The notes under the pieces are model-generated. The model was not told where the DNA came from and made no database searches. It saw only the letters and a list, made by a program, of their open reading frames with translations. The position numbers were made by a program, and so were the translations under genes. Below are positions 41,572 through 55,163 of a stretch of DNA of 64,000 bases, one piece after another (positions within the stretch are counted from its first letter, which is position 1; each line of letters begins with the position of its first letter). Origin of the DNA: Streptomyces sp. NBC_00442 (GTDB taxonomy: Bacteria > Actinomycetota > Actinomycetes > Streptomycetales > Streptomycetaceae); NCBI RefSeq assembly GCF_036014195.1, contig NZ_CP107918.1, forward strand, positions 3,224,001 to 3,288,000, given 5' to 3'.

Positions 41572-41622
41572 TGACTACTGTCGGCGATCCAACAACCCCG
41601 CGTGTATCCGCAGGAGTTGCGC

Positions 41623-42783
41623 ATGCCAGGACCGAAGGACCTCGACCCCTCCGCCTCCCCGCGCGCCCTCCTCGGCGCCGAACTCCGCCACGCCCGCGAG
41701 AAGGCCGGCCTCGGCCAGGAGGCCCTGGGCAGCCCCCTGTTCGTCTCCTCGTCCTTCATCGGCCAGCTCGAAGCGGGCATCCGCCGCATGCACCTGGAGT
41801 ACGCCCGGCAGTTCGACCAGATCCTCGGCACGGGCGGCTTCTTCACCCGCAAGTGCATAGCGGCGGCCAAGTCCAAGTACCCGGACCACTTCGCCGAGGC
41901 GGCGGAGGCAGAGGCCGTCGCGACCACCATCCGCGAGTACGCGCCGCTCCTCATCCCGGGCTTGTTGCAGACGGAGGGGTACGCGCGGGCGGTGTGCCGG
42001 GCGTACCAGCCAACGGCCCCGGAACCGGTCATCGACGACTTGGTCGCCGCGCGTCTCGCTCGCGCCCACCTCCTCGACAGTCCAACAACACCGATGTTGT
42101 GGGCGGTACTTGACGAGGCCGTACTGCGCAGGGAGGTGGGCGACCGGTCGGTGATGGCCGAAGCACTGACGCACGTCTCGGCACTTGGAGTTCGGCACCG
42201 GATCATCGTGCAGGTGCTGCCCTTCACGGTGGGCGGGCATGCGGCACTCAATGGCTCCCTCAAGCTGATGAGCTTTGAGGACGCTCCACCTCTCGCCTAT
42301 CTCCAGGGGCTGGGAACCGGGCAGCTTCAAGACGATCCCGCCACGGTCGCCCGTCATGAACCGACCTACGATCTACTCGGGGCCAGCGCACTCCCACCCC
42401 AACAATCCCTGGCCTGCTCAAGTCAGTGGCGGAGGATTACGCCCATGAGGATCAGCCCTGAGCATGACCTGAGCAAGGCCACGTGGCACAAGTCCAGTTA
42501 CAGCGGTGGGGACGGCGGCGACTGCCTGGAAATCGCGCGCTGGCAGAAGTCCAGCTACAGCGGCGCGAGCGGCGGCGACTGCCTAGAAGTCGCCCGCTGG
42601 CGTAAGTCCAGCCATAGCGATGGCAGCGGAGGCAACTGCCTCGAAGTGGCGAACGACTTCCCGCACATCGTCCCCGTCCGGGACTCGAAGGCCGCCCCCG
42701 GCGGCCCGACGCTCGTGTTCCGAACCGCGACGTGGTCGGCTTTCATCGCCGACGTGAAGAAGGGGTCCAACACGGCGAGCTGA
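41623..42783 (+). CDS. WhiJ-like regulator fused in frame to an expanded DUF397 protein
   Basis: A 386-residue reading frame. Residues about 15-70 are a XRE-type HTH (LGAELRHAREKAGLGQEALG, SSFIGQLEAGIRRMHLEYAR), followed by a DUF5753/Scr1 domain to about residue 265. The normal end of such proteins is visible in another frame: LLKSVAEDYAHEDQP and a stop at 42459-42461. Loss of one base near 42411-42416 (GGCCTG) would explain the shift. The continuing frame runs into the usual DUF397 start, ATG 42445, behind its own GGAGG at 42431. The DUF397 part has three copies of WxKSSxS...GGxCLEVA before one C-terminal half (IVPVRDSKAAPGGPTLVF). ATG 41623 follows AGGAG at six bases. It could be a fusion, a frameshift mutant with DUF397 still made separately, or a base-calling error. 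Confidence 0.85.
   Translation: MPGPKDLDPSASPRALLGAELRHAREKAGLGQEALGSPLFVSSSFIGQLEAGIRRMHLEYARQFDQILGTGGFFTRKCIAAAKSKYPDHFAEAAEAEAVATTIREYAPLLIPGLLQTEGYARAVCRAYQPTAPEPVIDDLVAARLARAHLLDSPTTPMLWAVLDEAVLRREVGDRSVMAEALTHVSALGVRHRIIVQVLPFTVGGHAALNGSLKLMSFEDAPPLAYLQGLGTGQLQDDPATVARHEPTYDLLGASALPPQQSLACSSQWRRITPMRISPEHDLSKATWHKSSYSGGDGGDCLEIARWQKSSYSGASGGDCLEVARWRKSSHSDGSGGNCLEVANDFPHIVPVRDSKAAPGGPTLVFRTATWSAFIADVKKGSNTAS
42483..42653 (+). repeat. three 57-bp tandem repeats coding the DUF397 N-terminal half
   Basis: Three in-frame 57-base units start TGGCACAAGTCCAG, TGGCAGAAGTCCAG and TGGCGTAAGTCCAG and each code for 19 residues. Divergence between units is mostly at third codon positions and at the variable Gly/Ser/Asp loop, which suggests selection on the protein. 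Confidence 0.85.
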
Positions 42784-43103: not shown

Positions 43104-44006
43104 ATGGCTGACAGCCACTTTAGTGCCGCACCCGCCCCCTCGCACCCCGACCGCCACCCGATGGCCAATCCGGGCTACGGGAAGCGCTCGACGCCGGGCC
43201 AACTCAAGCCGACAAAGCGCGACTTCGCGCACCTCCCGCCCCGCGAGGCGGCCGTGGCGGGGTACCTGGACCGGCTCCCGGACGGCGCGGACATCTCCGT
43301 GAAAACGCTGGCGAAGGTGCTCCCGTACGGGCAGTGCGCCCTGCGTACCGCGCTCCAACGCCTCGTCATTGAAGGCCACTTGCGGCGTGGACGCGAGCAC
43401 CTGCGCGGCTCGGACAGCGCACGGTGGGTGACCCGGACGTGGTTCTCGCGTACGGCGCGGGACGACGCGTGGTGGGCGGAATTCACCCGAGGGGGTGTCA
43501 AAGACACGTCCCCCGCCCCGCCCCCGGAACCCGAGCCGCGCGCACACCCTCAACAGGCCACGCACAGCAAGGCGTTCATGCTGCTGGCCGCGCTGGGGCG
43601 TACCGCGCCGGCGCTCTCCCTCTCGGCGCGGGACTGTTCGGACCTGGAACCGCTGGCAGCGGCGTGGTTCGAGCGCGGCGCGACGGAGTACGACGTCCTG
43701 CGCGCCCTGACCGCAGGCCTGCCGACCCCGGTCTACAGCGCGGCCGCCCTGACCCGTACCCGCCTCACCACCAAACTCCCCCCGGAGCCGCCCCCACCTC
43801 CCGCACGACCGGCCCTGCGTGTCCTGGAGTGCGCGAAGTGCGGTGCGCCGGGCCGCCCAGAAGCCCTGCCCGGCGGCGAGTGCGGCCCGTGCCGGGGCGA
43901 GCGCCCGCCCCGGCCCCCCGCCCTCCCCCCGGCGACGGTCCAGGCCCGTGCCGCCGAGGCAAGGGCGGCAGCGGCGGGCCGACGCCGGGAGGACAGTCCC
44001 GTATGA
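43104..44006 (+). CDS. winged-helix/zinc-ribbon protein, function unknown
   Basis: A 300-residue protein. Residues about 38-105 look like a winged helix (REAAVAGYLDRLPDGADISV, TLAKVLPYGQCALRTALQRL, EGHLRRGREHLRGSDSARWV). A Pro-rich linker, a helical region (LGRTAPALSLSARDCSDLEP) and a C-terminal zinc-ribbon-like CAKCGAPGRP...CGPCRG follow. From memory, similar proteins are common in Streptomyces and were often annotated as MarR-like or plasmid-type regulators; no function is established. ATG 43104 follows AAAGGAA. It converges on the eCIS-core gene 16 bases away. Confidence 0.75.
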   Translation: MADSHFSAAPAPSHPDRHPMANPGYGKRSTPGQLKPTKRDFAHLPPREAAVAGYLDRLPDGADISVKTLAKVLPYGQCALRTALQRLVIEGHLRRGREHLRGSDSARWVTRTWFSRTARDDAWWAEFTRGGVKDTSPAPPPEPEPRAHPQQATHSKAFMLLAALGRTAPALSLSARDCSDLEPLAAAWFERGATEYDVLRALTAGLPTPVYSAAALTRTRLTTKLPPEPPPPPARPALRVLECAKCGAPGRPEALPGGECGPCRGERPPRPPALPPATVQARAAEARAAAAGRRREDSPV

Positions 44007-44022: not shown

Positions 44023-45786
44023 TCAGGCCAGTTCCATCGCCTCTGTCCTGCGGCGGAGGTTGCCCTCGGTGTCGCTGTCGGAGTCCGAGCCGTAGTCGGT
44101 CGTCACCTTCGGCGACCCGTTGGTCGTGGCGATGGTGATCTCGTGCTCGGCGTCGCACTCCCATTGCAGGGTCGCGTAGGTGTTCCCGATCGCCTCGTCC
44201 ACTCGGCTGACGAACCGCGAGGCATTCTTCGCCGAGTAGCCGGCCATTTCGATGTTGGCGGCGCCAGAGATCCAGAGCGGCCCGGGGCGCGTGTCGGTAC
44301 CGATGAACAGATTCGCGTAGCACGAAACGCAGGGACGCTTCGTTCCCGCCAGACTGTCCGGGATGACCTGCTCGGGCCCGTCGCCGCTGAGATGGGAGAC
44401 GATCCGGCGTTCGGCGTGATAACCGTCGTCACCACCAGAAGCGACCGTCACGGGCTTGCTGAGTGCGGTGATGACATTCTTGTACTTGTCCGCGGCTGCC
44501 GCGTCGACGTTGTCACCGACGATGCGCTTGTCGGTCTTGTCGGTGTGCCGGGCCAGCCTGCCGTCAGCGTTTCCGCTGTTGAGGTGGGCTGCCTCGGCCG
44601 GGTACTCCTCAAGAACCTTCTTCAGGAAGGCGCTGCCGCTGAGCCCTTCGAGGTGGTCCGCGAGCAGGCTGTTCGATGCCGTGGTGTTTCCGGCTATGTA
44701 CAGGGCGCCTTCGTGGACCGCCGCCTGGATTTCGACGGGATTCGCCCCGTAGTCCGTCAGATAGTTCTTCACTACCGTGGCTACCCAGCGCATCGCCTGC
44801 TTGTCGGGCTCTCCCCGGTAGGAGCGGGGAGCCATGGTGTTTTCGTCATGTGCCTTGTAGGCCGCCGTGCTGGATTTGTAACCGGCCGCCTGCTTCGCGT
44901 CCATCCCCCCGATCTTGTGGAGGGTCATCCGGGACCAGACTTCCGGACTGCCGTCGGCTATCCAGCCCTTTGCCTCGAACTGCGACTTGACGGCGCGAGC
45001 GAATTCCTTGTTCGCTCTGGCCTCCGGGGACTGCTTGGCCTTGGGCATGCGCTGGATGGCGGGGGCCGCCGACGAGCTGGCCATGGCCCGCTGGGCGGTC
45101 ACCGGGCCGTCCGCGACGGACCGCTGCGCCGCGACCTGCCCTTCCGGTGCGGGGCTCGACATGACGCGGGTGGCGTTGGCTTCGGCTTCGCGTTCGAAGC
45201 GGTCGGAGGGGTCGGAGACCTTGAGCCCGCTGCCGTTGTCGGTGCCGGCCACGGGGCCCTGACGCTGCTGAATGACGTGGGTCAACTCGTGCGCGAGGGT
45301 GTGCTTGTCGGCTCCGCCGTCGCCGATGACGACGTGGCTGCCCGAGGTGTAGGCGCGGGCGCCGACCTCCGCGGCCGATGCCTTGGCCGCGCTGTCGTTG
45401 TGGACGCGTACGTCGGAGAAGTCCGCGCCGAGCCGCGACTCCATGTCGCTGCGGGTGGTGCTGTCGAGCGGGCGTCCGCCGGTGCGCAGCACGTCGTGCA
45501 CGGCGGAACGCTGCACCTGCGGGCCGGCCGCGCGCTGGACCGAGGGCCGCTCGGCCTGCTGGTGTCCGCATCCCGCGCCGTGCTGGTGCCGCTCCTGTTC
45601 GGCGGCCCGGTCCTGCGCGCCGGGGTGGCCGGCGCGGCGCAGCATCTGCACGACGGCGGCGTTGCCCGCACTGCCCTGGAGGGAGAGCAGGCTGTGCGGA
45701 ATGCCGCCGCCCGACGCGGAGTTCTTAGCGGTGGTGCCGGCCGGCTTCTTGCCTTCGGAAGTCTGGGCCTGGTCGTTGGCGTGCAC
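44023..45786 (-). CDS. eCIS-core (DUF4157) protein with C-terminal deaminase-like domain
   Basis: A 587-residue protein. After a disordered N-terminus, residues about 95-180 form the eCIS-core/DUF4157 domain: LDSTTRSDMESRLGADFSDV, VRVHNDSAAKASAAEVGARA and the metalloprotease-like HELTH at 166-170. This domain marks proteins linked to extracellular contractile injection systems. Residues about 350-545 show a deaminase pattern: strand EGALYIAGN, then HAE at 457-459 and PCVSC at 485-489, the zinc ligands and catalytic Glu of cytidine-deaminase-like toxins. The tail is Asp/Ser-rich. GTG 45786 follows GAGAGG. No other eCIS gene or immunity gene is adjacent. A role as an injected or secreted nucleotide- or nucleic-acid-modifying toxin is inference. 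Confidence 0.82.
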   Translation of the reverse strand: MHANDQAQTSEGKKPAGTTAKNSASGGGIPHSLLSLQGSAGNAAVVQMLRRAGHPGAQDRAAEQERHQHGAGCGHQQAERPSVQRAAGPQVQRSAVHDVLRTGGRPLDSTTRSDMESRLGADFSDVRVHNDSAAKASAAEVGARAYTSGSHVVIGDGGADKHTLAHELTHVIQQRQGPVAGTDNGSGLKVSDPSDRFEREAEANATRVMSSPAPEGQVAAQRSVADGPVTAQRAMASSSAAPAIQRMPKAKQSPEARANKEFARAVKSQFEAKGWIADGSPEVWSRMTLHKIGGMDAKQAAGYKSSTAAYKAHDENTMAPRSYRGEPDKQAMRWVATVVKNYLTDYGANPVEIQAAVHEGALYIAGNTTASNSLLADHLEGLSGSAFLKKVLEEYPAEAAHLNSGNADGRLARHTDKTDKRIVGDNVDAAAADKYKNVITALSKPVTVASGGDDGYHAERRIVSHLSGDGPEQVIPDSLAGTKRPCVSCYANLFIGTDTRPGPLWISGAANIEMAGYSAKNASRFVSRVDEAIGNTYATLQWECDAEHEITIATTNGSPKVTTDYGSDSDSDTEGNLRRRTEAMELA

Positions 45787-46030
45787 GGGGTCCTCTCTGC
45801 GTGGCACTGCTCGCGCTACGGTCTCGGGAAGCGTGACCGACGCGATCACTCCTCCCACTCCATACTGCACTGCCCGCTCCGCACTGTGGCCACGAGACCG
45901 GACCGCTGAGGAGGGCGCCGCGCTTACGGGCAACGGCGGCGGCCATCGGCTCTGCTGCGCTTGGGGGCACGTCAAGCACCCGATAGGGCATGCAAGTTGT
46001 GCGTTGATCCTGACGCTGGCCCTGACCCTT

Positions 46031-46243: not shown

Positions 46244-46762
46244 CTACTTGGTGCAGCCGTACTTCTTCGCCTCGCGAGGCACCAGGTCCTCAATGAAAGG
46301 CTGGATCTTCTTGTAGCCATCCGGGGTGTCTTCCACTCGGCTGCCCGCAAGCTTGACGACCACACTGAGATAGCTGTTCGGGTCATCACATGTTGCTGCG
46401 ACGACGCTGCCGTCGCTGCCGATAAAGGCTTCACCACGGAAGGAGACCTGGCGCTTTTTCCCGTTCCTGTAATTCAGGTCCAGCTTCGGGTCCAAGGGCT
46501 CCGGTGCGTGGCTGTACTGCTGAACGCTGGTGTAGAGGATTCGAGTTCCGTCGATGCTGATGCTGCACGCCATACCAGGGACAGCCTGAAGATCCGCATG
46601 CCAGTTTTTCAGGCTCTCGCCATCCGGCAGAAGCCGGGCCAAACTCTCCTTCTGCACCGGTACGCCACAAAACTCGCCAGGGACAGCAGCCTTGCCCCCG
46701 CACCCGGAAATGGCGGACGCCAAAACGAGCACCACTGCCACTGCTCCCGCTATCCGCGGCAC
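46244..46762 (-). CDS. lipoprotein, last gene of the ESX-like operon
   Basis: A 172-residue predicted lipoprotein. The signal sequence IAGAVAVVLVLASAISGCGG gives the lipid-anchor Cys near residue 21. The mature part begins CGGKAAVPGEFCGVPVQ and contains four further Cys (FCGVPVQ, MACSISIDG, ATCDDPNSY and KKYGCTK near the end), perhaps two disulfides. GTG 46762 overlaps the stop of the preceding gene (TAGTG), so it is translationally coupled. No named family recognised; its position suggests a surface partner of the ESX-like proteins. Confidence 0.8.
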   Translation of the reverse strand: MPRIAGAVAVVLVLASAISGCGGKAAVPGEFCGVPVQKESLARLLPDGESLKNWHADLQAVPGMACSISIDGTRILYTSVQQYSHAPEPLDPKLDLNYRNGKKRQVSFRGEAFIGSDGSVVAATCDDPNSYLSVVVKLAGSRVEDTPDGYKKIQPFIEDLVPREAKKYGCTK

Positions 46763-49023
46763 TATTGTGCACCTGCCACGCCGCGACCTTGCTGGTTCCC
46801 GTCGTTGGCCGACGCGGCTATCTGCTTGTACACCCCGTCACCCGCGCCTGCGGAATAGCCCGGATGAGAGTCCGCCCAATCGGAGTTGACCGCGTGCCAC
46901 TGGTCCGCGAGGGCATCAAGCTCTCCCCGGCGCTGGTTGTACGTCGTCTGATTGTCACCGGTGAGCTTCTCCGCTTGGCGGTGCTGCTCATCCATGATCC
47001 AAGCAGTGGTGACCGCATCCACTCCTCGCTGAGCCGCGTCCCCGACGCCGGGAATAAGAGTGATCGGCGTGCCCAGTGCGTGGTAACTCCATGTCTTGTC
47101 CCAGGTAAAATCGTGCTGGTCACCTTTGAGCGCTAGGTATCGGGCCTGCTCCATGGCTCCGACGGTGTATCCAGCAGAACTAAGGGTGTCCTCCGGCTTG
47201 CGAGTAGTGTCGTAGAAGGAGTCGACTATGGACTTGTGCATTCCCTCAGTGAACATCCCGTAGGAGTGCTCGCTCCGAGAAATCTGCTTGACGACCTCGA
47301 GGACCTTTTGCTGGTCCAACGGGACGTGCTCATTGTTGACTCTGCCAAGGGTCTCATGGATGTCATGTCCGTGATTACTCATCATCGTAGCCATGCTGTC
47401 TCGCAGGGAAGCCGGCACATCATCACCTTGCTTGGAAAAAACGTCCAGGGAATGCTTGAACACACGGTCATTGACATCCGTGTGAGAGGTGGGTGCGAGG
47501 TGCGGACCCGTCGAGGGGTCTGTTCCGGTCGCCGCTGCGGTCAACGCATCCCCCAGCCCCGCGCGGGTATCGGCATCAGCGATATCCGGGCCGTGCGTTT
47601 CGACCTTCGCCGCCGGGCCATCCCATTGGGTGGTGTTGATGACGTCCCAATTACGGCTGCCATCGCCGTGCCCGAGCAGATAGTCGAAGCGCTTTTTCCC
47701 GTCTTCCGTACCTGGGTCGAAGTACCCGGCGGCACCCTCCGGATCATGGGACATGACGCCGAGGGCTGCATCGACGGGATCATTCGCGAACCAGCCGTCT
47801 CCATCCTTCTTGTCGAACTTCCCATAGAGGTCCCAGATGTTGGGGTCCCTCTTTTCCATGGCAATCATGTCGTCGGTGACGTCTGCGACGAACTGCGGGG
47901 AGTACCCGTGCCCTTGTTGCATCAACGTGGCCAGGCTCTGGTACCCACGTACCTGCTGCCCCTGCCCCGGCCCGACCTTGACCTGGCCCTCGGCTACTTC
48001 GACGGAGTATTCGTCATCACCATGCTGCCGCAGGGCATCGCGCCAACGGCTGTAGAACTGCCCTTCTTTACGGTTCTCCCAGAAGCTGAGCTGAAGCTTG
48101 TATTCCGGCGTTCCGAGCTGCAACTTTGCACCGTTGGCGTCCGTGAAATCCGGTACGTGCATCGCGGTCGCCAGCGAGTCCGAAAGCCCACCGGCGAGCT
48201 TCAGGTAGGTGTCCTTGCGCTTGGTGTCGTCGAAGTACGCCAGGTCGTCGATCTTGTTGGACAACTTCAAGGTGTTGTCCGGGCCCAACGAGTCGAGAAG
48301 GGTCTGGCTGAAGACCCGGTCGCCCGAGTTGTCCCGCATGAGGCGTGCCCACTCATCCAGGTCGTCCGGCTTCTGGCCCGCAAGGACCTGGTCTGCGTAC
48401 TTCTTCGCCTCTCGGGCCTCGTAGAGCTCGATGTCGCCGAGCGCGTCACCGTTGAAGGCGTGGTCGAGTCCCAGGACCTGATCCGGTATGCGCTGGAAGA
48501 TGTCCTTTATGCCTGCGGCCTCATGCAGCGCCAGCTGCGCGCCCTGGTCCGCGTCGTCGACCGCTCTTACCGCATCCGCGATGCTCTTCGTCCACTCCGC
48601 GGCAGCGGCGTTCCCCTTCTTGACGGTCTCGTCGTAGTCCGTCCTGTACGGACTCAACTTGGCCGTGTCGTAGGCCGCCTGCCCTTGACCATTGACGTGC
48701 ATTCCGTTCCGCTGCGCCTGGTCGACGAGATCCTTGACCCGACCCACCAGCCGGACGAACTGGCCGTGAGCGTCCTGAAGAATCGAAGCGATGGCCCGCG
48801 CCTCGACCTGAGCGTCAGCAAACTGCTTGCGCGTCATGGCAAACCGAGAGGAGGCTGCCCCGGCACTGACTCCGGCCCACACACCGTTGTCCGCAACGGC
48901 CTGCACCTGGGTCTCGTACCAGTTCTGAGGGTTCATGAACATGTCGGCCATGTCGTCCCAGACCTGTGCGGCATCCACCAAAGCGCCGATCGGCGCGGTG
49001 ACCACGTCTTGATACGTGAGCAT
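46762..49023 (-). CDS. DUF6571-like large protein of the ESX-like operon
   Basis: A 753-residue soluble protein. The N-terminal 190 residues are helical (TYQDVVTAPIGALVDAAQVW, DDMADMFMNPQNWYETQVQA, QDAHGQFVRLVGRVKDLVDQ) and resemble a WXG/LXG-type secretion region. The rest contains the DUF6571-like segments MRDNSGDRVFSQTLLDSLGP, DLYGKFDKKDGDGWFANDPV and DVINTTQWDGPAAKVETHGP. Related actinobacterial proteins lie next to ESX genes; biochemical function is unknown. No obvious toxin motif was found in the C-terminus. ATG 49023 follows GGGGGGAAG. Coupled to the lipoprotein gene; 16 bases after the 139-aa gene. Confidence 0.8.
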   Translation of the reverse strand: MLTYQDVVTAPIGALVDAAQVWDDMADMFMNPQNWYETQVQAVADNGVWAGVSAGAASSRFAMTRKQFADAQVEARAIASILQDAHGQFVRLVGRVKDLVDQAQRNGMHVNGQGQAAYDTAKLSPYRTDYDETVKKGNAAAAEWTKSIADAVRAVDDADQGAQLALHEAAGIKDIFQRIPDQVLGLDHAFNGDALGDIELYEAREAKKYADQVLAGQKPDDLDEWARLMRDNSGDRVFSQTLLDSLGPDNTLKLSNKIDDLAYFDDTKRKDTYLKLAGGLSDSLATAMHVPDFTDANGAKLQLGTPEYKLQLSFWENRKEGQFYSRWRDALRQHGDDEYSVEVAEGQVKVGPGQGQQVRGYQSLATLMQQGHGYSPQFVADVTDDMIAMEKRDPNIWDLYGKFDKKDGDGWFANDPVDAALGVMSHDPEGAAGYFDPGTEDGKKRFDYLLGHGDGSRNWDVINTTQWDGPAAKVETHGPDIADADTRAGLGDALTAAATGTDPSTGPHLAPTSHTDVNDRVFKHSLDVFSKQGDDVPASLRDSMATMMSNHGHDIHETLGRVNNEHVPLDQQKVLEVVKQISRSEHSYGMFTEGMHKSIVDSFYDTTRKPEDTLSSAGYTVGAMEQARYLALKGDQHDFTWDKTWSYHALGTPITLIPGVGDAAQRGVDAVTTAWIMDEQHRQAEKLTGDNQTTYNQRRGELDALADQWHAVNSDWADSHPGYSAGAGDGVYKQIAASANDGNQQGRGVAGAQ

Positions 49024-49039
49024 TCTTCCCCCCTGCTCC

Positions 49040-49459
49040 CTAGACGTCGCGCTCGGGACCGTGCCCGACGACGATGCGCGCCGCGTGGTCCCGCACCGCG
49101 TAGTCGACGTCTTGGAAGTCCTGCTTCGTCTGCTCCAGGGCTGTCTGTTCATACGCGAGGCGGCCCATCAAGCCGGCAACCTGCGCGTCCCATTCGTCCT
49201 GAGCGTCTCCGAGCGCGGAGCCGAAGGCCCAGGCCGAGAACGACCGGGCCATCGACGCGGAGCAATCACCGCTGTGGTGCCCGGCCTTGTCTGTTTCGGG
49301 CTGTATAAGGTCGCGTAACGCCTTCACCGCGGCGGTCTTTCCCGAGCGGTCAGTCTTCAAGTCCTTCCCCCCGGCACCGGGTGTGCTGTCGAGACCAAGA
49401 CGGTCTTGACGCCGGAGCAGTGCGTCCGTCTTCAGCTGTTCCCATTCGTCCCACGCCAT
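49040..49459 (-). CDS. 139-aa helical protein with YxxxD motif, ESX-like operon
   Basis: A 139-residue charged protein, mostly helical: MAWDEWEQLKTDALLRRQDR, then RSFSAWAFGSALGDAQDEWD, QVAGLMGRLAYEQTALEQTK and DVDYAVRDHAARIVVGHGPE. YAVRD fits the YxxxD/E type VII secretion motif. ATG 49459 is one base after the mycosin stop codon, with GGAGGAG inside the mycosin 3' end, so translation is coupled. No family name recognised. Probably a substrate or chaperone of the large protein that follows. Confidence 0.75.
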   Translation of the reverse strand: MAWDEWEQLKTDALLRRQDRLGLDSTPGAGGKDLKTDRSGKTAAVKALRDLIQPETDKAGHHSGDCSASMARSFSAWAFGSALGDAQDEWDAQVAGLMGRLAYEQTALEQTKQDFQDVDYAVRDHAARIVVGHGPERDV

Positions 49460-49460
49460 G

Positions 49461-50813
49461 TCAGTAACTCCTCCTGTGATCGCGGCTCTGGTTCTCCGGC
49501 CATCCCGCCCCATGGCCCCAACTCGGCTGCTGCGCCTGGGCCGCGGCCTCTTGCAGGCGATGCTTGCGCAAGAGCCAGAGACCCAGGAGCACGACGATGA
49601 CCCCCAGGGCGCCAAAGCCCATTGGGAGCAAGGCCGTTGCCCTGGAGTCGGCCAGCTTCTCCGCCTGAGGCGCGCCGGCCTTGCCCGGGGTGGCGGCCGG
49701 GCTCGGTGTGCCGGCCGGGCTCGGTGTCGCGGGCGCGGCCGATGCCCCTGACGTCGGGGGGTCCGGCAGCGGGTACACATCAGCCGGGCCGGGATCCCCG
49801 GGGTTCACCAAAGCGATCCGGGGACGCACGATCCCGAAGCCGATGGAGTCATTGCGCTTGGCCCCGTCGGTCGGCCCACCGATCGTGTTCAGCATGACCC
49901 GCAGCACCTGATTGTTCGTCCAGGTGGGGTGCTTGGACCAAATCAGGGCGGCGGACGCGGAGGCCAGGGCGGTGGCGTCGCTGGTGCCGTGTGATTCGCA
50001 CAGGCCAGTCCCGCCGTCGCAGGCGTGCACGATTTCATCGCCGGGCGCGGACATGTCCACCTGGGGACCGAATTCGGATTCAGGGGTCCCATGAAGATTC
50101 CTCCCCACCGCCGAGACACCCACCACCCCTGGCGTGGCTCCTGGATACTCGACTTCATTGGTCACATTGCCACTGTTGCCTACTGCAGCAAACACCAACG
50201 AGCCCTTGTCTAGGGCGTACTTCACCGCTGCGGTCAGCTCGGGTGAGCCCGCATTTGTTCCCATCGAGATGTTGATGATCTTCGCGTTCTGGTCGGCTGC
50301 GTAGCGGATCGCCTGATGAGCAGCCCTATTGAATTTTTCACTTGCGTCAGCTTGATTGTTCGCTGATTCTGCCTTCGGCATGCGGATAGGAAGAATCTTG
50401 GCGCCTGGAGCAAGACCGGAGGGCGCCTTCCCGTCATCCGCACCTCCTTTGCCGGCGATCAGGGTTGCCATGCTCGTTCCATGGCCCTCGTAGTCGACGT
50501 ATGCGTCTCCCGGCTCACCCAGAGCAAAATCCTTGCCGGCCAGAACCTGCCCGGCGAGATTCGGATTCTTCGGGTTAACGCCAGTGTCGATGACAGCGAC
50601 CGTCATGCCCGCGCCTGTGCTGGTTCTCCACATCTCATCGGCCTTCATGGCATCGAGGAACCACTGCTGCTCTCGGGGCGTATCCGCCCAAGCTGGTTCG
50701 GCTGGGACGCTCAGCAGCAGCACGCTGCACAGCACCAGCGCCGCGGCAGCCCCGCTCGGACGTCGAAAACGGCTCGATGGCATGAGCTTCTTTTGCGCCT
50801 TCCTCGAACTCAT
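49461..50813 (-). CDS. mycosin-like subtilisin (copy 2)
   Basis: A 450-residue type VII secretion-associated serine protease. Signal peptide residues about 17-43 (AAAALVLCSVLLLSVPAEPA). The catalytic triad is Asp 76 (AVIDTGV), His 111 (YEGHGTSMATLIAG) and Ser 278 (SHGTSDATALASASAALIW). A Pro/Ala-rich stalk (about 345-390) leads to a C-terminal membrane helix (LLPMGFGALGVIVVLLGLWL) and a basic tail. It should be anchored with the protease outside. It is a tandem paralogue of the gene at 50926: the 3' half is almost identical in DNA, the 5' half diverged. The same GTCATCGACTGATG context precedes both starts. Confidence 0.93.
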   Translation of the reverse strand: MSSRKAQKKLMPSSRFRRPSGAAAALVLCSVLLLSVPAEPAWADTPREQQWFLDAMKADEMWRTSTGAGMTVAVIDTGVNPKNPNLAGQVLAGKDFALGEPGDAYVDYEGHGTSMATLIAGKGGADDGKAPSGLAPGAKILPIRMPKAESANNQADASEKFNRAAHQAIRYAADQNAKIINISMGTNAGSPELTAAVKYALDKGSLVFAAVGNSGNVTNEVEYPGATPGVVGVSAVGRNLHGTPESEFGPQVDMSAPGDEIVHACDGGTGLCESHGTSDATALASASAALIWSKHPTWTNNQVLRVMLNTIGGPTDGAKRNDSIGFGIVRPRIALVNPGDPGPADVYPLPDPPTSGASAAPATPSPAGTPSPAATPGKAGAPQAEKLADSRATALLPMGFGALGVIVVLLGLWLLRKHRLQEAAAQAQQPSWGHGAGWPENQSRDHRRSY

Positions 50814-50925
50814 CAGTCGATGACCCGGCTAGCTGAGTCCGGCTCCGCCGCTTGGATCACCGGCATCCCACCTGTGGCGCACCTGAGGCAGCGCCTACGT
50901 GCTCACTGCCCCCAGCCCGTCTCCA

Positions 50926-52260
50926 TCAGTAGCTTCCCGTGTGATCCCGGTTCTGATGCTCCGGCCATCCCGTACCCGGGCCCCAACTCGGCTGCTGGGC
51001 GCGCTCAGCTGCCGCGTGCCGGCGACGCTTGCGCCAGACCCAGAGGCCAAGGAGCACGCCCACAAGTCCCCCCGCCCCAATGCCCAGGAAGATGAGGAGA
51101 GTTGTGTCGGAGCTGCTGTCCTTGCCGGCCTTGGGCGCCTCGGCCTTGGCCGGGGTCGCGGCCGGGCTCGGTGTCGCGGGCGCGGCCGATGCCCCTGACG
51201 TCGGAGGGTCCGGCAGCGGGTACACGTCCGCCGGGCCGGGATCCCCGGGGTTCACCAAAGCGATCCGGGGACGGACGATCCCGAAGCCGATGTCGTCGTT
51301 GCGCTTGGCCCCGTCGGTCGGCCCACCGATCGTGTTCAGCATGACCCGCAGCACCTGGTTGTTCGTCCAGGTGGGGTGCTTGGACCAAATCAGGGCGGCG
51401 GACGCGGACGCTAGGGCGGTGGCGTCGCTGGTGCCGTGTGTTGTGCACAGCCCTGTCCCGCCCCCACAGGCGGCCACCATCTCGTCGCCTGGCGCGGCCA
51501 TGTCCACTTGGGGCCCGTATTGAGACTCGGCGGTTTTGTGCAGGTTCTTGCCTACGGCCGCAACGCCAACGACACCGGGCGTGGCGGCCGGGTACTCCAC
51601 CTCGTTGCCGATGTTGCCGCTGTTCCCCACGGCCGCGAAGACCAACGAGCCCTTTCCCAGAGCGTATTTAACCGCAGCCGTCAGCTGTGGTGAACCCTCG
51701 GGTACCCCCAGAGAGATATTGATGACTTTCGCGTTCTGATCGGCTGCGTAACGGATTGCCTGAGGGGCAATCGCGTTGAACTCCTTGTCGCCCTCGGCCT
51801 GGGTGACGGTGTCAGTTGCCTTCGGCATGCGGATTGGCAGGATCTTCGCACCTGGGGCAAGGCCGAAGGCTCCATTGCCACCGCCGCGTGCCCCTGTCCC
51901 AGCAATCAACCCGGCCATGCCGGTGCCGTGGCCCTTGTAGTCGTCGTGTTCGTCTCCGGGCTGGTCCTGTGCAAAGTCTCTGCCTGGCAGTACTTGCCCG
52001 AGTAGATCGGGGTTTTTCGGGTCGACGCCGCTGTCGATCACCGCGACAGTGACGCCCTTCCCCGTGCTGGTCTGCCACATCGTGTCGGCCTTCATGACGT
52101 CGAGAAACCACTGCTTCTCGCGCGTCGAATCCGCCCAAGCCGGTGTACCCCCGGCACTCACAATCAGCACACCGCACAACATCGCTACCGCAACAGACCC
52201 GCGCCCTCGCCGAACACTGCACCTTGGCATGAGCTTCCCTCGCGCCTTTCTCAAACGCAT
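50926..52260 (-). CDS. mycosin-like subtilisin (copy 1)
   Basis: A 444-residue mycosin. Signal peptide at about 21-43 (GSVAVAMLCGVLIVSAGGTP). The triad Asp 76 (AVIDSGV), His 111 (YKGHGTGMAGLIAG) and Ser 278 (THGTSDATALASASAALIW) aligns position for position with copy 2. The C-terminal stalk and membrane helix (LLIFLGIGAGGLVGVLLGLW) end in a basic, Gln-rich tail. Family role: processing of ESX substrates and stabilisation of the ESX complex. ATG 52260 overlaps the stop of the upstream gene (TGATG), which decides the start and implies coupling. Confidence 0.93.
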   Translation of the reverse strand: MRLRKARGKLMPRCSVRRGRGSVAVAMLCGVLIVSAGGTPAWADSTREKQWFLDVMKADTMWQTSTGKGVTVAVIDSGVDPKNPDLLGQVLPGRDFAQDQPGDEHDDYKGHGTGMAGLIAGTGARGGGNGAFGLAPGAKILPIRMPKATDTVTQAEGDKEFNAIAPQAIRYAADQNAKVINISLGVPEGSPQLTAAVKYALGKGSLVFAAVGNSGNIGNEVEYPAATPGVVGVAAVGKNLHKTAESQYGPQVDMAAPGDEMVAACGGGTGLCTTHGTSDATALASASAALIWSKHPTWTNNQVLRVMLNTIGGPTDGAKRNDDIGFGIVRPRIALVNPGDPGPADVYPLPDPPTSGASAAPATPSPAATPAKAEAPKAGKDSSSDTTLLIFLGIGAGGLVGVLLGLWVWRKRRRHAAAERAQQPSWGPGTGWPEHQNRDHTGSY

Positions 52261-53750
52261 CAGTCGATGACCGGCGGCACAACGCGAGGATCGTCCCGCA
52301 GCCACGTCTCATCGTCTTCGACGAGATAGCTGGGGCCTCCGCCGCCCGCCTCACGTCGCGAACGCCCCTTTTGGGAGCCGCTAGGTGTACGCCCACCATG
52401 GGCTCCGCCGCCCGCGTTCCCGGCAATGGGCCTCCCGCCAGAGACACCCCCTCGCTCCGGGGCTGCACCAGTCGATACAGAACGTGAGCCGGCAGCTCGT
52501 CCAGACTGCTGTGCACTTCCGCCGCTTACCCCGCTGCGGGGAGCCATCGAGCCTCGGCCAGGCATCGCTCCCGACCGACCCGCTGCGTGGCCCATTGGAC
52601 CAGTTCCCGTGACAGGCCGCGCTGCACCGCGACCGCCCGATTCCTCCGCCCCGACGACGGTTCCCTTGGGAACACTGCCATTTGGCCGGTCCGGCCCTGC
52701 GGGAACGGGCCGACCGCCCACGATCCCGGGGCCGCCATCCGGCATGCGCACGGTGCTGCGTCCGGATGCGGTTTGCCCATTCCGCGCCAGGGGGCCCTCT
52801 CCGGCGGCAGCCCTCCCTGTGCCGGAAGGGCCCGGAGGAACACTCCGCCCTCCGCCGAAGAGGGGCGGTGGGACTCGCACTGCCGACGTCTCACCACCAT
52901 GCCCCGGACCCCCGCCCTGCCCGCTTCCCGCGGGGCTCGGTGGCGGCGCTGTCTGCGGCAGCGTGGCCACCGAGTCGGTGTCTAGCCGCGCGGGTTGGTG
53001 TGCGTCCCCTAGCGTCGGGCTCACAGACGAGGTGGAGTTCGAGTGCGGCGAGGGGTCCACGCCGCTATGAGCGGAAGCGAAGGTATGTCCCTGGCTTCCG
53101 GGATTGGCGCGGTGGGACGAGGAGGCGCGTTCTGCCGTACCGCCGGAACTTGGGTTATAGAAGCCGCTGTGCAACGACTCGTCTGTTCTCGGCGCGATCG
53201 ACTGCGGCGGCGGAGGAAACTTCGGCCGCTGCAGCCCGTTCATCTGCGTCGCAGACTGCTGGTACGCCTGACCCAGCTTGCGCATCTGCGCCACGGCCTC
53301 CTGCCGCACCTTCTCCTTGTCGGCCTCCAGGGCCGCCAGTTCGCCCGCGGACTTTCTGCTGATCGCTGCCGCGTCCGGGTCGTTGTGGGCTGACCGTGCC
53401 GCGTCCAGGTTGGCCTGGGCGCCGGGCTTGTCGCGGGGGATGGCGGCCTGGGCCGAGGCGATGGCGTCGCTGGCGTGGCCCAGCCAGGTGGAGGAGCCCT
53501 CGCTGAAGTCGCCCAGCCTCAGGGTCTCGTTGGCCAGGTCCGCGCTCCACGTGCGGAACGCGTCCGCGCCCGTGCCCTTCCACTCCACCCACTGGGGGCG
53601 GACCTTCAGGTCTTCCGCGATCTTTCGGATCTCCTTGGCCGCGGCCGCGAGCCGGTCGGCTGCCCCCTGCACCGTGCCGCTGTTCGCCTGGTCGAGCCAG
53701 GCCAGCATGGCTTCGTGGCTCATGCCCTCGAAGGGTGTGCTGCCGCCCAT
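52260..53750 (-). CDS. WXG-like/PPE-like protein with long Pro/Gly/Ser tail
   Basis: A 496-residue protein. The N-terminal 180 residues are helical and carry a W-x-G turn in VEWKGTGADAFRTWSADLA, flanked by EGMSHEAMLAWLDQANSGTV and DFSEGSSTWLGHASDAIASA, so it looks like a long WXG100/PPE-type ESX protein. The remaining 300 residues are low-complexity Gly/Ser/Pro/Arg, ending in SYLVEDDETWLRDDPRVVPP; YLVED also fits YxxxD. ATG 53750 overlaps the upstream stop (TGATG), with GGAGG upstream. Probably secreted or surface-exposed with the help of the mycosins. Confidence 0.82.
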   Translation of the reverse strand: MGGSTPFEGMSHEAMLAWLDQANSGTVQGAADRLAAAAKEIRKIAEDLKVRPQWVEWKGTGADAFRTWSADLANETLRLGDFSEGSSTWLGHASDAIASAQAAIPRDKPGAQANLDAARSAHNDPDAAAISRKSAGELAALEADKEKVRQEAVAQMRKLGQAYQQSATQMNGLQRPKFPPPPQSIAPRTDESLHSGFYNPSSGGTAERASSSHRANPGSQGHTFASAHSGVDPSPHSNSTSSVSPTLGDAHQPARLDTDSVATLPQTAPPPSPAGSGQGGGPGHGGETSAVRVPPPLFGGGRSVPPGPSGTGRAAAGEGPLARNGQTASGRSTVRMPDGGPGIVGGRPVPAGPDRPNGSVPKGTVVGAEESGGRGAARPVTGTGPMGHAAGRSGAMPGRGSMAPRSGVSGGSAQQSGRAAGSRSVSTGAAPERGGVSGGRPIAGNAGGGAHGGRTPSGSQKGRSRREAGGGGPSYLVEDDETWLRDDPRVVPPVID

Positions 53751-54262
53751 CAGGCCGTTCCTCCGGTGCTGCCGCTCGTCGGCTTCGGGTCGCTCTTCGA
53801 GTGCGTCTGCCCGGGTTCGTAGGCGCCCCCGTAGTGCTTCGTCGTCTCCACGCTGATCGCCGCCATCCGCTGGCGGAGGTCCGCGTCGATGTTCTGGTAG
53901 CCCTTGTGCGAGGCCAGCACCGCGATCCCCATGCCCTCGATCGAGTCCGACAGCAGCCGGGACAGGTTTTCCAGTTCGGTGATCACCGTCTCGTACGAGG
54001 TGAACAGACCCGACGCCTCGGTGAACGCGCCGGCCCCACCGCCGAACTGGTCGCGTGCCAGGCGTTCCTGGCCCAGTTCGCCCGGGGCGGCCGGGGAGCC
54101 CTTGAGGTTGCGGATCAACTCGTCCACTCGCTTCTGGAAGCTCGTGAACGACGACAGTTCCGTGACCACGTCGGTCGCGGCCTTCTCCGCCACCTCCACG
54201 ACGTTGAACGGCCAAGGCAGCGCCTGTGGCTGCGATCCCGCTCCGCTCTCGCTCGGTATCAA
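53750..54262 (-). CDS. ESX-like helical protein, first gene of the operon
   Basis: A 170-residue helical protein without signal peptide: FNVVEVAEKAATDVVTELSS, FQKRVDELIRNLKGSPAAPG, ASGLFTSYETVITELENLSR, IAVLASHKGYQNIDADLRQR. YQNID fits the YxxxD/E motif of type VII substrates. The start is TTG 54262, directly behind GGAGG, with no ATG or GTG available in frame. It overlaps the next gene by TGATG, so the first three genes are coupled. Likely a partner of the WXG-like protein. The family name is not recognised. Confidence 0.78.
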   Translation of the reverse strand: MIPSESGAGSQPQALPWPFNVVEVAEKAATDVVTELSSFTSFQKRVDELIRNLKGSPAAPGELGQERLARDQFGGGAGAFTEASGLFTSYETVITELENLSRLLSDSIEGMGIAVLASHKGYQNIDADLRQRMAAISVETTKHYGGAYEPGQTHSKSDPKPTSGSTGGTA

Positions 54263-54410: not shown

Positions 54411-55163
54411 TCAGCTCGCGGACTTCAGGGTGATGCCGCCGTTGTCCGTCGTCAGGTTCACGCGGTGCGGGGCGGACGGGTCGTCGGGTATGCCGAGTTT
54501 CCTGCTGCCGTTCTGGGTCTGGGCCGATACGCGGTACTTGGCGGGCGGCGCGGTCACGGTGATGCTGCCGTTGGAGGTCTGGGCCGTGATGTCCTGGGCG
54601 GTGGCAGGGGTCAGGGAGACCGAGCCGTTGGAGGCTCGTGCCGTGACGCCGGTGCCGTGCAGGGCCTTCGCCTCGATCGAGCCGTTGGTGGTGCGGACGT
54701 CGACCGGGCCCGTCGCGCCGTTCACCACGATGCGGCCGTCGTCGGCCGATACCTTCACCGAGCCCACCGTGGACAGGTTCATGCTGCCCGCCGCGGTGGA
54801 GCCGGTCACCGGGAGGCCGGCGGGGACGTCGACCGTGTAATCGACGGAGCAGTGGCCCGGACAGCCGCCGAGGATCAGCACGCCGTTCTCCACGCGGTAC
54901 GTCGGGCCGTCCGGCTTCGCCTTGCCCCGGTAGGTGACCTCGCGGTGGACCGTTGTCCTGGTCAGGTTCTGTTTGCCGCGGACCCGGAAGCCGTCCGACT
55001 TTCCATCGATGCGGACCGCGGTGATCGTGTCCTTGACGGTGGCGTCGTCCTTGAACGTGCTGTCGTCCAGCGGGCCGCAGGCGCTGAGCGTCGTCACCGT
55101 GAGCACGGCCAGGGCGGCGGCGGCCGCGCCGGTGCGGATGCGTCGGTGGATGGTGCTGGTCAT
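54411..55163 (-). CDS. DUF4097 family lipoprotein
   Basis: A 250-residue predicted lipoprotein: signal with lipobox TLSAC near residue 29, then a right-handed beta-helix-like DUF4097 domain built of repeats such as DVRTTNGSIEAKALHGTGVT, ASNGSVSLTPATAQDI and QTSNGSITVTAP. One Cys pair is in LGGCPGHCSVDY. DUF4097 proteins are bacterial adhesin-like surface proteins of unknown role. ATG 55163 follows GGGGGAA. It lies on the same strand as the ESX-like operon, 148 bases upstream of its first gene, but probably as a separate unit. Confidence 0.88.
   Translation of the reverse strand: MTSTIHRRIRTGAAAAALAVLTVTTLSACGPLDDSTFKDDATVKDTITAVRIDGKSDGFRVRGKQNLTRTTVHREVTYRGKAKPDGPTYRVENGVLILGGCPGHCSVDYTVDVPAGLPVTGSTAAGSMNLSTVGSVKVSADDGRIVVNGATGPVDVRTTNGSIEAKALHGTGVTARASNGSVSLTPATAQDITAQTSNGSITVTAPPAKYRVSAQTQNGSRKLGIPDDPSAPHRVNLTTDNGGITLKSAS

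Follow-up and report, generated by a model that had tools for sequence, protein, structure and literature searches.

A candidate deaminase cargo of a contractile injection system, encoded by a dispersed eCIS-core gene in Streptomyces sp. NBC_00442

A 64,000-nucleotide stretch of Streptomyces sp. NBC_00442 (contig NZ_CP107918.1, positions 3,224,001 to 3,288,000; hereafter the window) contains at 44023..45786, on the minus strand, a gene that probably encodes modular cargo of the bacterium's own contractile injection system (CIS), with a C-terminal deaminase of an undescribed clade that would deaminate bases in DNA or RNA after firing. The case is built on the modular anatomy of the 587-residue protein, the conserved zinc motif of its C-terminal domain, the profile kinship of this domain with deaminases, and the genomic linkage of its relatives to extracellular contractile injection systems (eCIS).

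Anatomy of the protein and spread of its C-terminal domain

The gene and its parts are listed below.

44023..45786, minus strand: coding sequence of 587 amino acids, GTG start, TGA stop
45791..45798, minus strand: purine-rich ribosome-binding-like sequence AGAGAGGA, read from the sequence directly upstream of the GTG
45172..45786, minus strand: N-terminal module, residues 1-205, found at 55-79% identity in three more eCIS-core proteins that the genome encodes
45256..45471, minus strand: eCIS_core/DUF4157 domain, residues 106-177 (Pfam PF13699, E 1.5e-26)
45277..45291, minus strand: HELTH metallopeptidase-like motif, residues 166-170 (from the sequence)
44686..44733, minus strand: predicted beta hairpin EIQAAVHEGALYIAGN, residues 352-367, with an invariant Glu and an invariant Gln (AlphaFold2 secondary structure)
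44152..44733, minus strand: deaminase-like domain, residues about 352-545, limits approximate (family alignment, profile matches and model)
Residues 368-455, minus strand: insert of about 85 residues, largely helical, that precedes the HAE helix inside the deaminase-like domain (AlphaFold2)
44410..44418, minus strand: HAE motif, residues 457-459 (sequence and family alignment)
44320..44334, minus strand: PCVSC motif, residues 485-489 (sequence and family alignment)
44026..44097, minus strand: acidic Ser/Asp tail (DYGSDSDSD...), residues 564-587 (tail-pattern comparison)

The GTG start matches the aligned starts of close relatives (for example, P0002 and P0003). A preliminary description of the stretch, made from the letters alone, had named this frame together with HELTH at residues 166-170, a strand EGALYIAGN at 359-367, HAE at 457-459 and PCVSC at 485-489, and the frame and all of these positions proved exact. 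It had also recognised an eCIS-core (DUF4157) domain, which PF13699 detects with 92.8 bits against a curated cut-off of 22, and the HExxH motif of eCIS_core/DUF4157 proteins is present as HELTH. The C-terminal part matched no Pfam family above cut-off and no NCBIfam family, a phmmer search of PDB with the whole protein gave no match, and the single PADLOC match (E 0.018) lies over the eCIS-core part. Among the 335 open segments of at least 100 amino acids in the window, HAE...PCxxC occurs only in this gene, and it appeared in none of 20,000 shuffles of residues 241-587.

When the protein was aligned with 19 relatives found by similarity, HAERR and GxKRPCxxC were invariant in all 20 proteins, as were one Glu and one Gln of the predicted hairpin. 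Later alignments contained loci partly collected by these same motifs, and motif invariance was left uncounted there. Successive similarity searches recovered 12, then at least 20, then at least 16 family proteins, and those with organism names are actinobacterial. In a scan of named genomes the family turned up at 14 loci; 13 of these are actinobacterial, and the other is in an Acidobacteriaceae metagenome-assembled genome (MAG). This non-actinobacterial relative (L022:7605-8804) stands in a record without a tube gene, and the MAG may be incomplete or contaminated.

The C-terminal domain family is rare. It was found in 4 of 295 genomes of the genus, including our own. Across 391 genomes of the order, a wider profile gave matches in 16 at E 0.01, of which 13 at E 0.001. 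The closest relative, L009, has a domain 91% identical to that of the window, and a distant branch (P0021 to P0025, L066, L067, L068, L069 and L073) retains HAEQ...RPCxxC. A profile built from the full-length alignment matched 55 of 394 genomes of the class, 25 of them in the same genus (own genome included). Among the matches listed, the C-terminal part was covered only in the window gene and in the gene of one other genome, G502, the others being N-terminal only; when 35 genomes of the family to which G502 belongs were searched, G502 alone matched.

Relation of the C-terminal domain to deaminases

The C-terminal domain likely belongs to the deaminase superfamily. In a PDB search with a profile of 19 domain segments, the sole structure below E 0.01 was 3g8q (E 5.6e-4), and the alignment runs through HAE, RPCxxC and the subsequent Gly-Pro. 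A core-only profile also retrieved this structure (E 9.1e-4), which is CDAT8, a tRNA C8-to-U deaminase (PMC9957541). Weaker PDB matches (E 0.15-1) were to a YD-repeat protein and to BaDTF3 entries, and unrelated proteins appeared in the same searches at E 0.33 to 6.9.

The Pfam comparison points in the same direction. Scanning 22 core segments gave matches to 11 families, eight of which are deaminases, and 22 of the 25 family-member matches were to deaminases. OTT_1508 was the best (E 8.8e-5), and the weak pulls go to OTT_1508, Pput_2613, XOO_2897 and AID/APOBEC-like families. The segments had been chosen by motif, and the control shuffles were therefore made to keep it: ten core segments shuffled with the motif residues retained matched no Pfam family at E 1. 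Scans of ten whole distant relatives gave matches to deaminase families for six, all below threshold, and no relative attained the cut-off of a deaminase family. Pput_2613 (BaDTF3) did not match the window domain, and matched two of the 22 core segments (best E 0.0045).

Pairwise hhalign comparison gave a probability of 27.8 with an OTT_1508-type protein and 46.9 with an XOO_2897-type protein. Reversed profiles stayed below 0.4, and none of 300 unrelated segments, a set from which any segment with an HxE...CxxC pattern had been excluded, reached 27.8. Column-shuffled profiles with the motif kept came close, however (for L075, 1 of 60 passed 27.8; for L092, 0 of 60 passed 46.9), and hhalign was not accepted as proof of kinship. 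Its scores are partly explained by the motif, and the kinship therefore rests on the PDB and Pfam profile results. With L076, which matches OTT_1508 weakly, hhalign gave only 2.15.

Several results are less favourable to deaminase kinship. A profile of only eight rows reached 3g8q at no better than E 0.11. The window domain alone scored E 0.21 and 12.0 bits against OTT_1508 (PF14441), below the cut-off of 27. The check by AlphaFold2, set beforehand, gave a divided answer. In both models the hairpin is followed by the helical insert, the HAE helix, a short strand, the PCxxC helix, another helix and a strand, and this predicted order fits a deaminase carrying an insert; but among the matches listed by Foldseek and VIA-align for the models there was no deaminase, and confidence drops past residue 170 of the second model. 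The zinc-binding arrangement of toxin deaminases, as first described here, is thus upheld in its motifs, since H-x-E and PC-x(2-4)-C stand in order, are invariant and come with profile similarity to deaminases, but not in its fold, which is unproven.

Assignment to a named family was less successful. YwqJ and SCP1.201/DddA had been put forward, and neither was among the Pfam matches at E <=1 for the window protein or its core. Membership of XOO_2897 was rejected as well, as hhalign with eleven Streptomyces XOO_2897 proteins gave 0.35. Judged by Pfam cut-offs, the domain falls outside YwqJ, SCP1.201/DddA, OTT_1508 and Pput_2613.

Contractile injection systems in the genome and beside relatives

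The genome (one contig, 7.73 Mb) has four eCIS_core matches, including the window gene. The N-terminal module is identical to the other three proteins at 150 of 205, 153 of 194 and 119 of 216 aligned positions. Between the C-terminal parts, local scores were 42-49, and the similarity is not convincing. On this sequence comparison, the four proteins would look like a modular cargo set with one loading part in common. The three further genes (L029:5658-7028, L030:5557-6936 and L031:6410-8659) are all distant from eCIS, and their C-terminal parts are unrelated to that of the 587-residue protein.

The preliminary description had seen no tube, sheath or baseplate gene adjacent, and a tblastn search with nine of the organism's own eCIS proteins indeed gave no match in the window. 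It had suggested delivery in trans by a distant injection system, and a cluster with eCIS core genes was found about 600 kb off on the same chromosome. By Pfam, the cluster contains genes for a sheath, two tube proteins, hub/spike, gp25, baseplate J, Tail_P2_I and an AAA ATPase. It includes none of the four eCIS_core genes. Because the cluster with its core genes sits at this distance on the same chromosome, delivery in trans becomes plausible. A 1222-residue frame inside the cluster (L027:12383-16051) has no Pfam match at E 0.001.

The gene had also been called an orphan, which is correct locally, as the window holds no eCIS gene, but does not extend to its relatives, which adjoin eCIS sheath or sheath-like genes in three groups. 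In the mutually close relatives L013, L014, L016 and L017, tblastn with the organism's own eCIS proteins found sheath and AAA genes beside the deaminase gene; the remaining 10 of the 14 named-genome loci had no such eCIS genes within the fetched flanks. In a second group, L093 (from the genome of L062) has the gene and a sheath gene in head-to-head orientation. The L094 copy, of the distant HAEQ branch, lies immediately before a short sheath-like frame and an AAA gene. The three groups are mutually 21 to 40% identical. Genes of eCIS effectors are expected within an eCIS cluster or at its end. The window copy lies elsewhere, whereas L013, L014, L016, L017 and L093 adjoin a sheath gene and L094 a short sheath-like frame.

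Two of these loci have further features. Directly after the deaminase gene in the L014 eCIS cluster is a gene for a 416-residue protein with a similar start (L014:9045-10295), and L016 and L017 have frames equal to it in length and similar in start. The L014 pair is reminiscent of a two-protein effector arrangement reported for S. lividans (PMC13277306). Near the HAEQ-type deaminase gene, at L094:9044-16580, the short sheath-like frame and the AAA ATPase are accompanied by a second sheath gene, which differs from the first; two tail-like systems apparently adjoin here.

Tube genes (PF06841) were found in 24 of the 27 distinct family-bearing genomes (family match at E <=0.001), the exceptions being G825, G685 and the Acidobacteriaceae MAG; the count becomes 26 of 30 when three weaker family matches are included. 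The tally was first 24 of 25 genome handles (two reached twice), and then 6 of 9 (two repeating earlier genomes). The genus baseline is 75 of 121, a figure that takes in three genomes with the family and may also reflect tubes from other tail-like systems, and the comparison is one of raw genome counts, uncorrected for kinship between genomes.

Proposed action, known relatives and neighbouring genes

The absence of an evident immunity gene, remarked on from the sequence alone, was maintained in a wider comparison. Frames within about 3.5 kb of the gene were compared by BLAST across the 14 loci and the window, and frames overlapping the gene were excluded in a repeat. No candidate was common to unrelated loci: recurring neighbours were confined to L009/window, L013/L014/L016/L017 and L018/L019, plus one regulator type. 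A conserved immunity gene was rejected, as non-overlapping neighbour frames recur only in close relatives, apart from that regulator.

In the mechanism that we favour, the eCIS-core module, common to three other dispersed cargo-like genes, would serve as the loading part, and the protein would be ejected from the particle. By analogy with the superfamily, zinc would be bound by His457 together with Cys486 and Cys489, and Glu459 would act as proton shuttle. Once fired, the domain would act on bases of DNA or RNA by deamination, with cytosines as the most likely targets. Cytoplasmic particles that mediate cell death have been reported, as have clusters lacking a conventional tail-fibre gene, in S. 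coelicolor and S. venezuelae (PMC10066040). We lean towards the producer's own hyphae, or sister hyphae, as the place of nucleic-acid damage, because the reported Streptomyces particles are cytoplasmic and mediate cell death, and because no immunity gene accompanies the gene.

The same cargo could instead be directed, once particles are released, at foreign bacteria, fungi or other eukaryotes and not at the hyphae of the producer; this is distinctly less probable. The reported killing of E. coli and yeast by expression of the DUF4157-deaminase EAT11 (PMC8213781) is in its favour, and for Zhang et al. 2012 the lack of immunity genes pointed to targets that are distant (PMC3482391). Streptomyces phage-tail-like particles have also been reported to influence fungal interactions (PMC8505568). 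The cytoplasmic location of the S. coelicolor particles and the tail-fibre gene missing from both clusters (PMC10066040) speak for the hyphae instead, and nuclear-localisation-like motifs are not enriched. Attack on eukaryotic nuclei through nuclear localisation was accordingly discarded, with 11 K[KR]x[KR] motifs observed against 10.7 expected from shuffles.

A reading without nucleic-acid deamination is rather unlikely. In it, the C-terminal domain would be an enzyme, of the deaminase fold or zinc-dependent, whose substrate is a free nucleotide or some other small molecule, or else would bind zinc without being active. The missing deaminase among the fold matches listed would suit such a domain, as would the unusual insert of about 85 residues ahead of the HAE helix. 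Its best-characterised profile relatives, however, act on nucleic acid: CDAT8 on tRNA, and a Pput_2613-like (BaDTF3) toxin by mutating DNA cytosines, as reported (PMC7901873). The catalytic residues are also invariant in 20 of 20 aligned proteins. Export or action by another route, for example through the two subtilase genes 3.7-6.5 kb upstream (49461-52305), with the eCIS-core domain incidental, is very improbable, since L009, with its 91% identical domain, lacks those subtilases at the same place, and relatives adjoin eCIS genes; the subtilase route was rejected on the evidence of L009.

The acidic tail is a further character of the family. An acidic Ser/Asp pattern is present in 25 of 25 family proteins versus 0 of 21 other eCIS-core proteins, at least two of these controls (L040 and L046) being shortened by stop codons. 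The pattern was derived from the family itself, and P0020, whose end departs from the family, had been excluded beforehand. After shuffling, a mean of 1.16 of the 25 tails still matched. In the AlphaFold2 model the tail is disordered, and as a guess it could be a self-inhibitor or a docking element. A more daring proposal, and an improbable one, is that the family is an unnamed clade of eCIS-delivered nucleic-acid deaminases that control themselves without an immunity protein. The tail would mimic nucleic acid and block the active site until ejection or until cleavage by the HELTH domain, which would let Streptomyces keep the genes scattered, as developmental 'genome-killing' cargo in its own hyphae.

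Comparable designs have been described. EAT11, from the actinobacterium Amycolatopsis nigrescens, is reported to have the same DUF4157 N-terminus and a predicted deaminase, and to be toxic to the two hosts mentioned above; it was picked among eCIS-associated candidates, whereas the window gene lies about 600 kb from eCIS, and the likeness is one of description, not of sequence (PMC8213781). PVC-metallopeptidase toxins, whose metallopeptidase domain is also named DUF4157 (PMC8213781), are described with this domain N-terminal, deaminases among their C-termini and immunity genes often absent, as here. Their deaminases were compared by description, and the window domain, by contrast, is below every Pfam deaminase cut-off (PMC3482391).

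Among the profile relatives, CDAT8 of Methanopyrus kandleri (3g8q) is the best match of solved structure, with HAE..RPC..C in register with the window family. Unlike the window protein, it is an archaeal tRNA editor with ferredoxin-like and THUMP domains, for which the consulted part of the source describes no delivery module (PMC9957541). Pput_2613-like/BaDTF3 DNA cytosine deaminase toxins have a toxin role and a weak Pfam/PDB pull in common with the family, but the T. equigenitalis BaDTF3 toxin has a named immunity gene, and no eCIS-core module is seen in the sections of the report consulted (PMC7901873). On the side of delivery, the Sle1-type effector RS14790 of Micromonospora eburnea places a cytidine-deaminase-like C-terminus on an actinobacterial CIS effector, as here. 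Sle1-type effectors are presented there without DUF4157, and RS14790, in contrast to the window protein, is paired with an immunity protein, RS14785; this likeness is again by description. The Micromonospora deaminase-like effector was tested in E. coli, and a fusion of it with a Streptomyces effector was also made (PMC13277306).

DUF4157-deaminase effectors are thus already known, including the absence of immunity genes (PMC3482391, PMC8213781). As far as our searches show, what is new is a deaminase clade whose domain in the window protein matches no Pfam family at cut-off, the long insert, the acidic tail, and the position of all four eCIS-core genes away from eCIS. No paper on the C-terminal domain family was found in the open-licence literature searched. 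If the proposed reading is true, an undescribed, rare deaminase clade joins the injected effectors, and CIS cargo genes can lie scattered, remote from the machine, with one common loading module. It would also offer concrete tests of whether Streptomyces CIS-mediated cell death involves direct nucleic-acid damage, and of how producers of eCIS stay alive when their cargo has no immunity gene. For base editing, new deaminase clades are of practical interest, too.

Some features of the neighbourhood may be added. Upstream of the gene, 46244-54262 holds the two subtilase genes and a 796-residue frame without a Pfam match. The L009 gene lies between counterparts, identified by eye, of the window genes 54411-55163 and 43104-44006, and the subtilases are absent there, which suggests insertion in the window or loss in L009.

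The recurring helix-turn-helix regulator stands beside the gene in L009, L020 and the window, that of L020 being 25-28% identical to the others. The regulator type is common in Streptomyces, so its recurrence may be due to chance. In the window it is a DUF5753-type gene by Pfam (41602-42783), with similar genes at L009:10658-11515 and L020:10620-11792 by BLAST and at L033:4287-5156 by eye.
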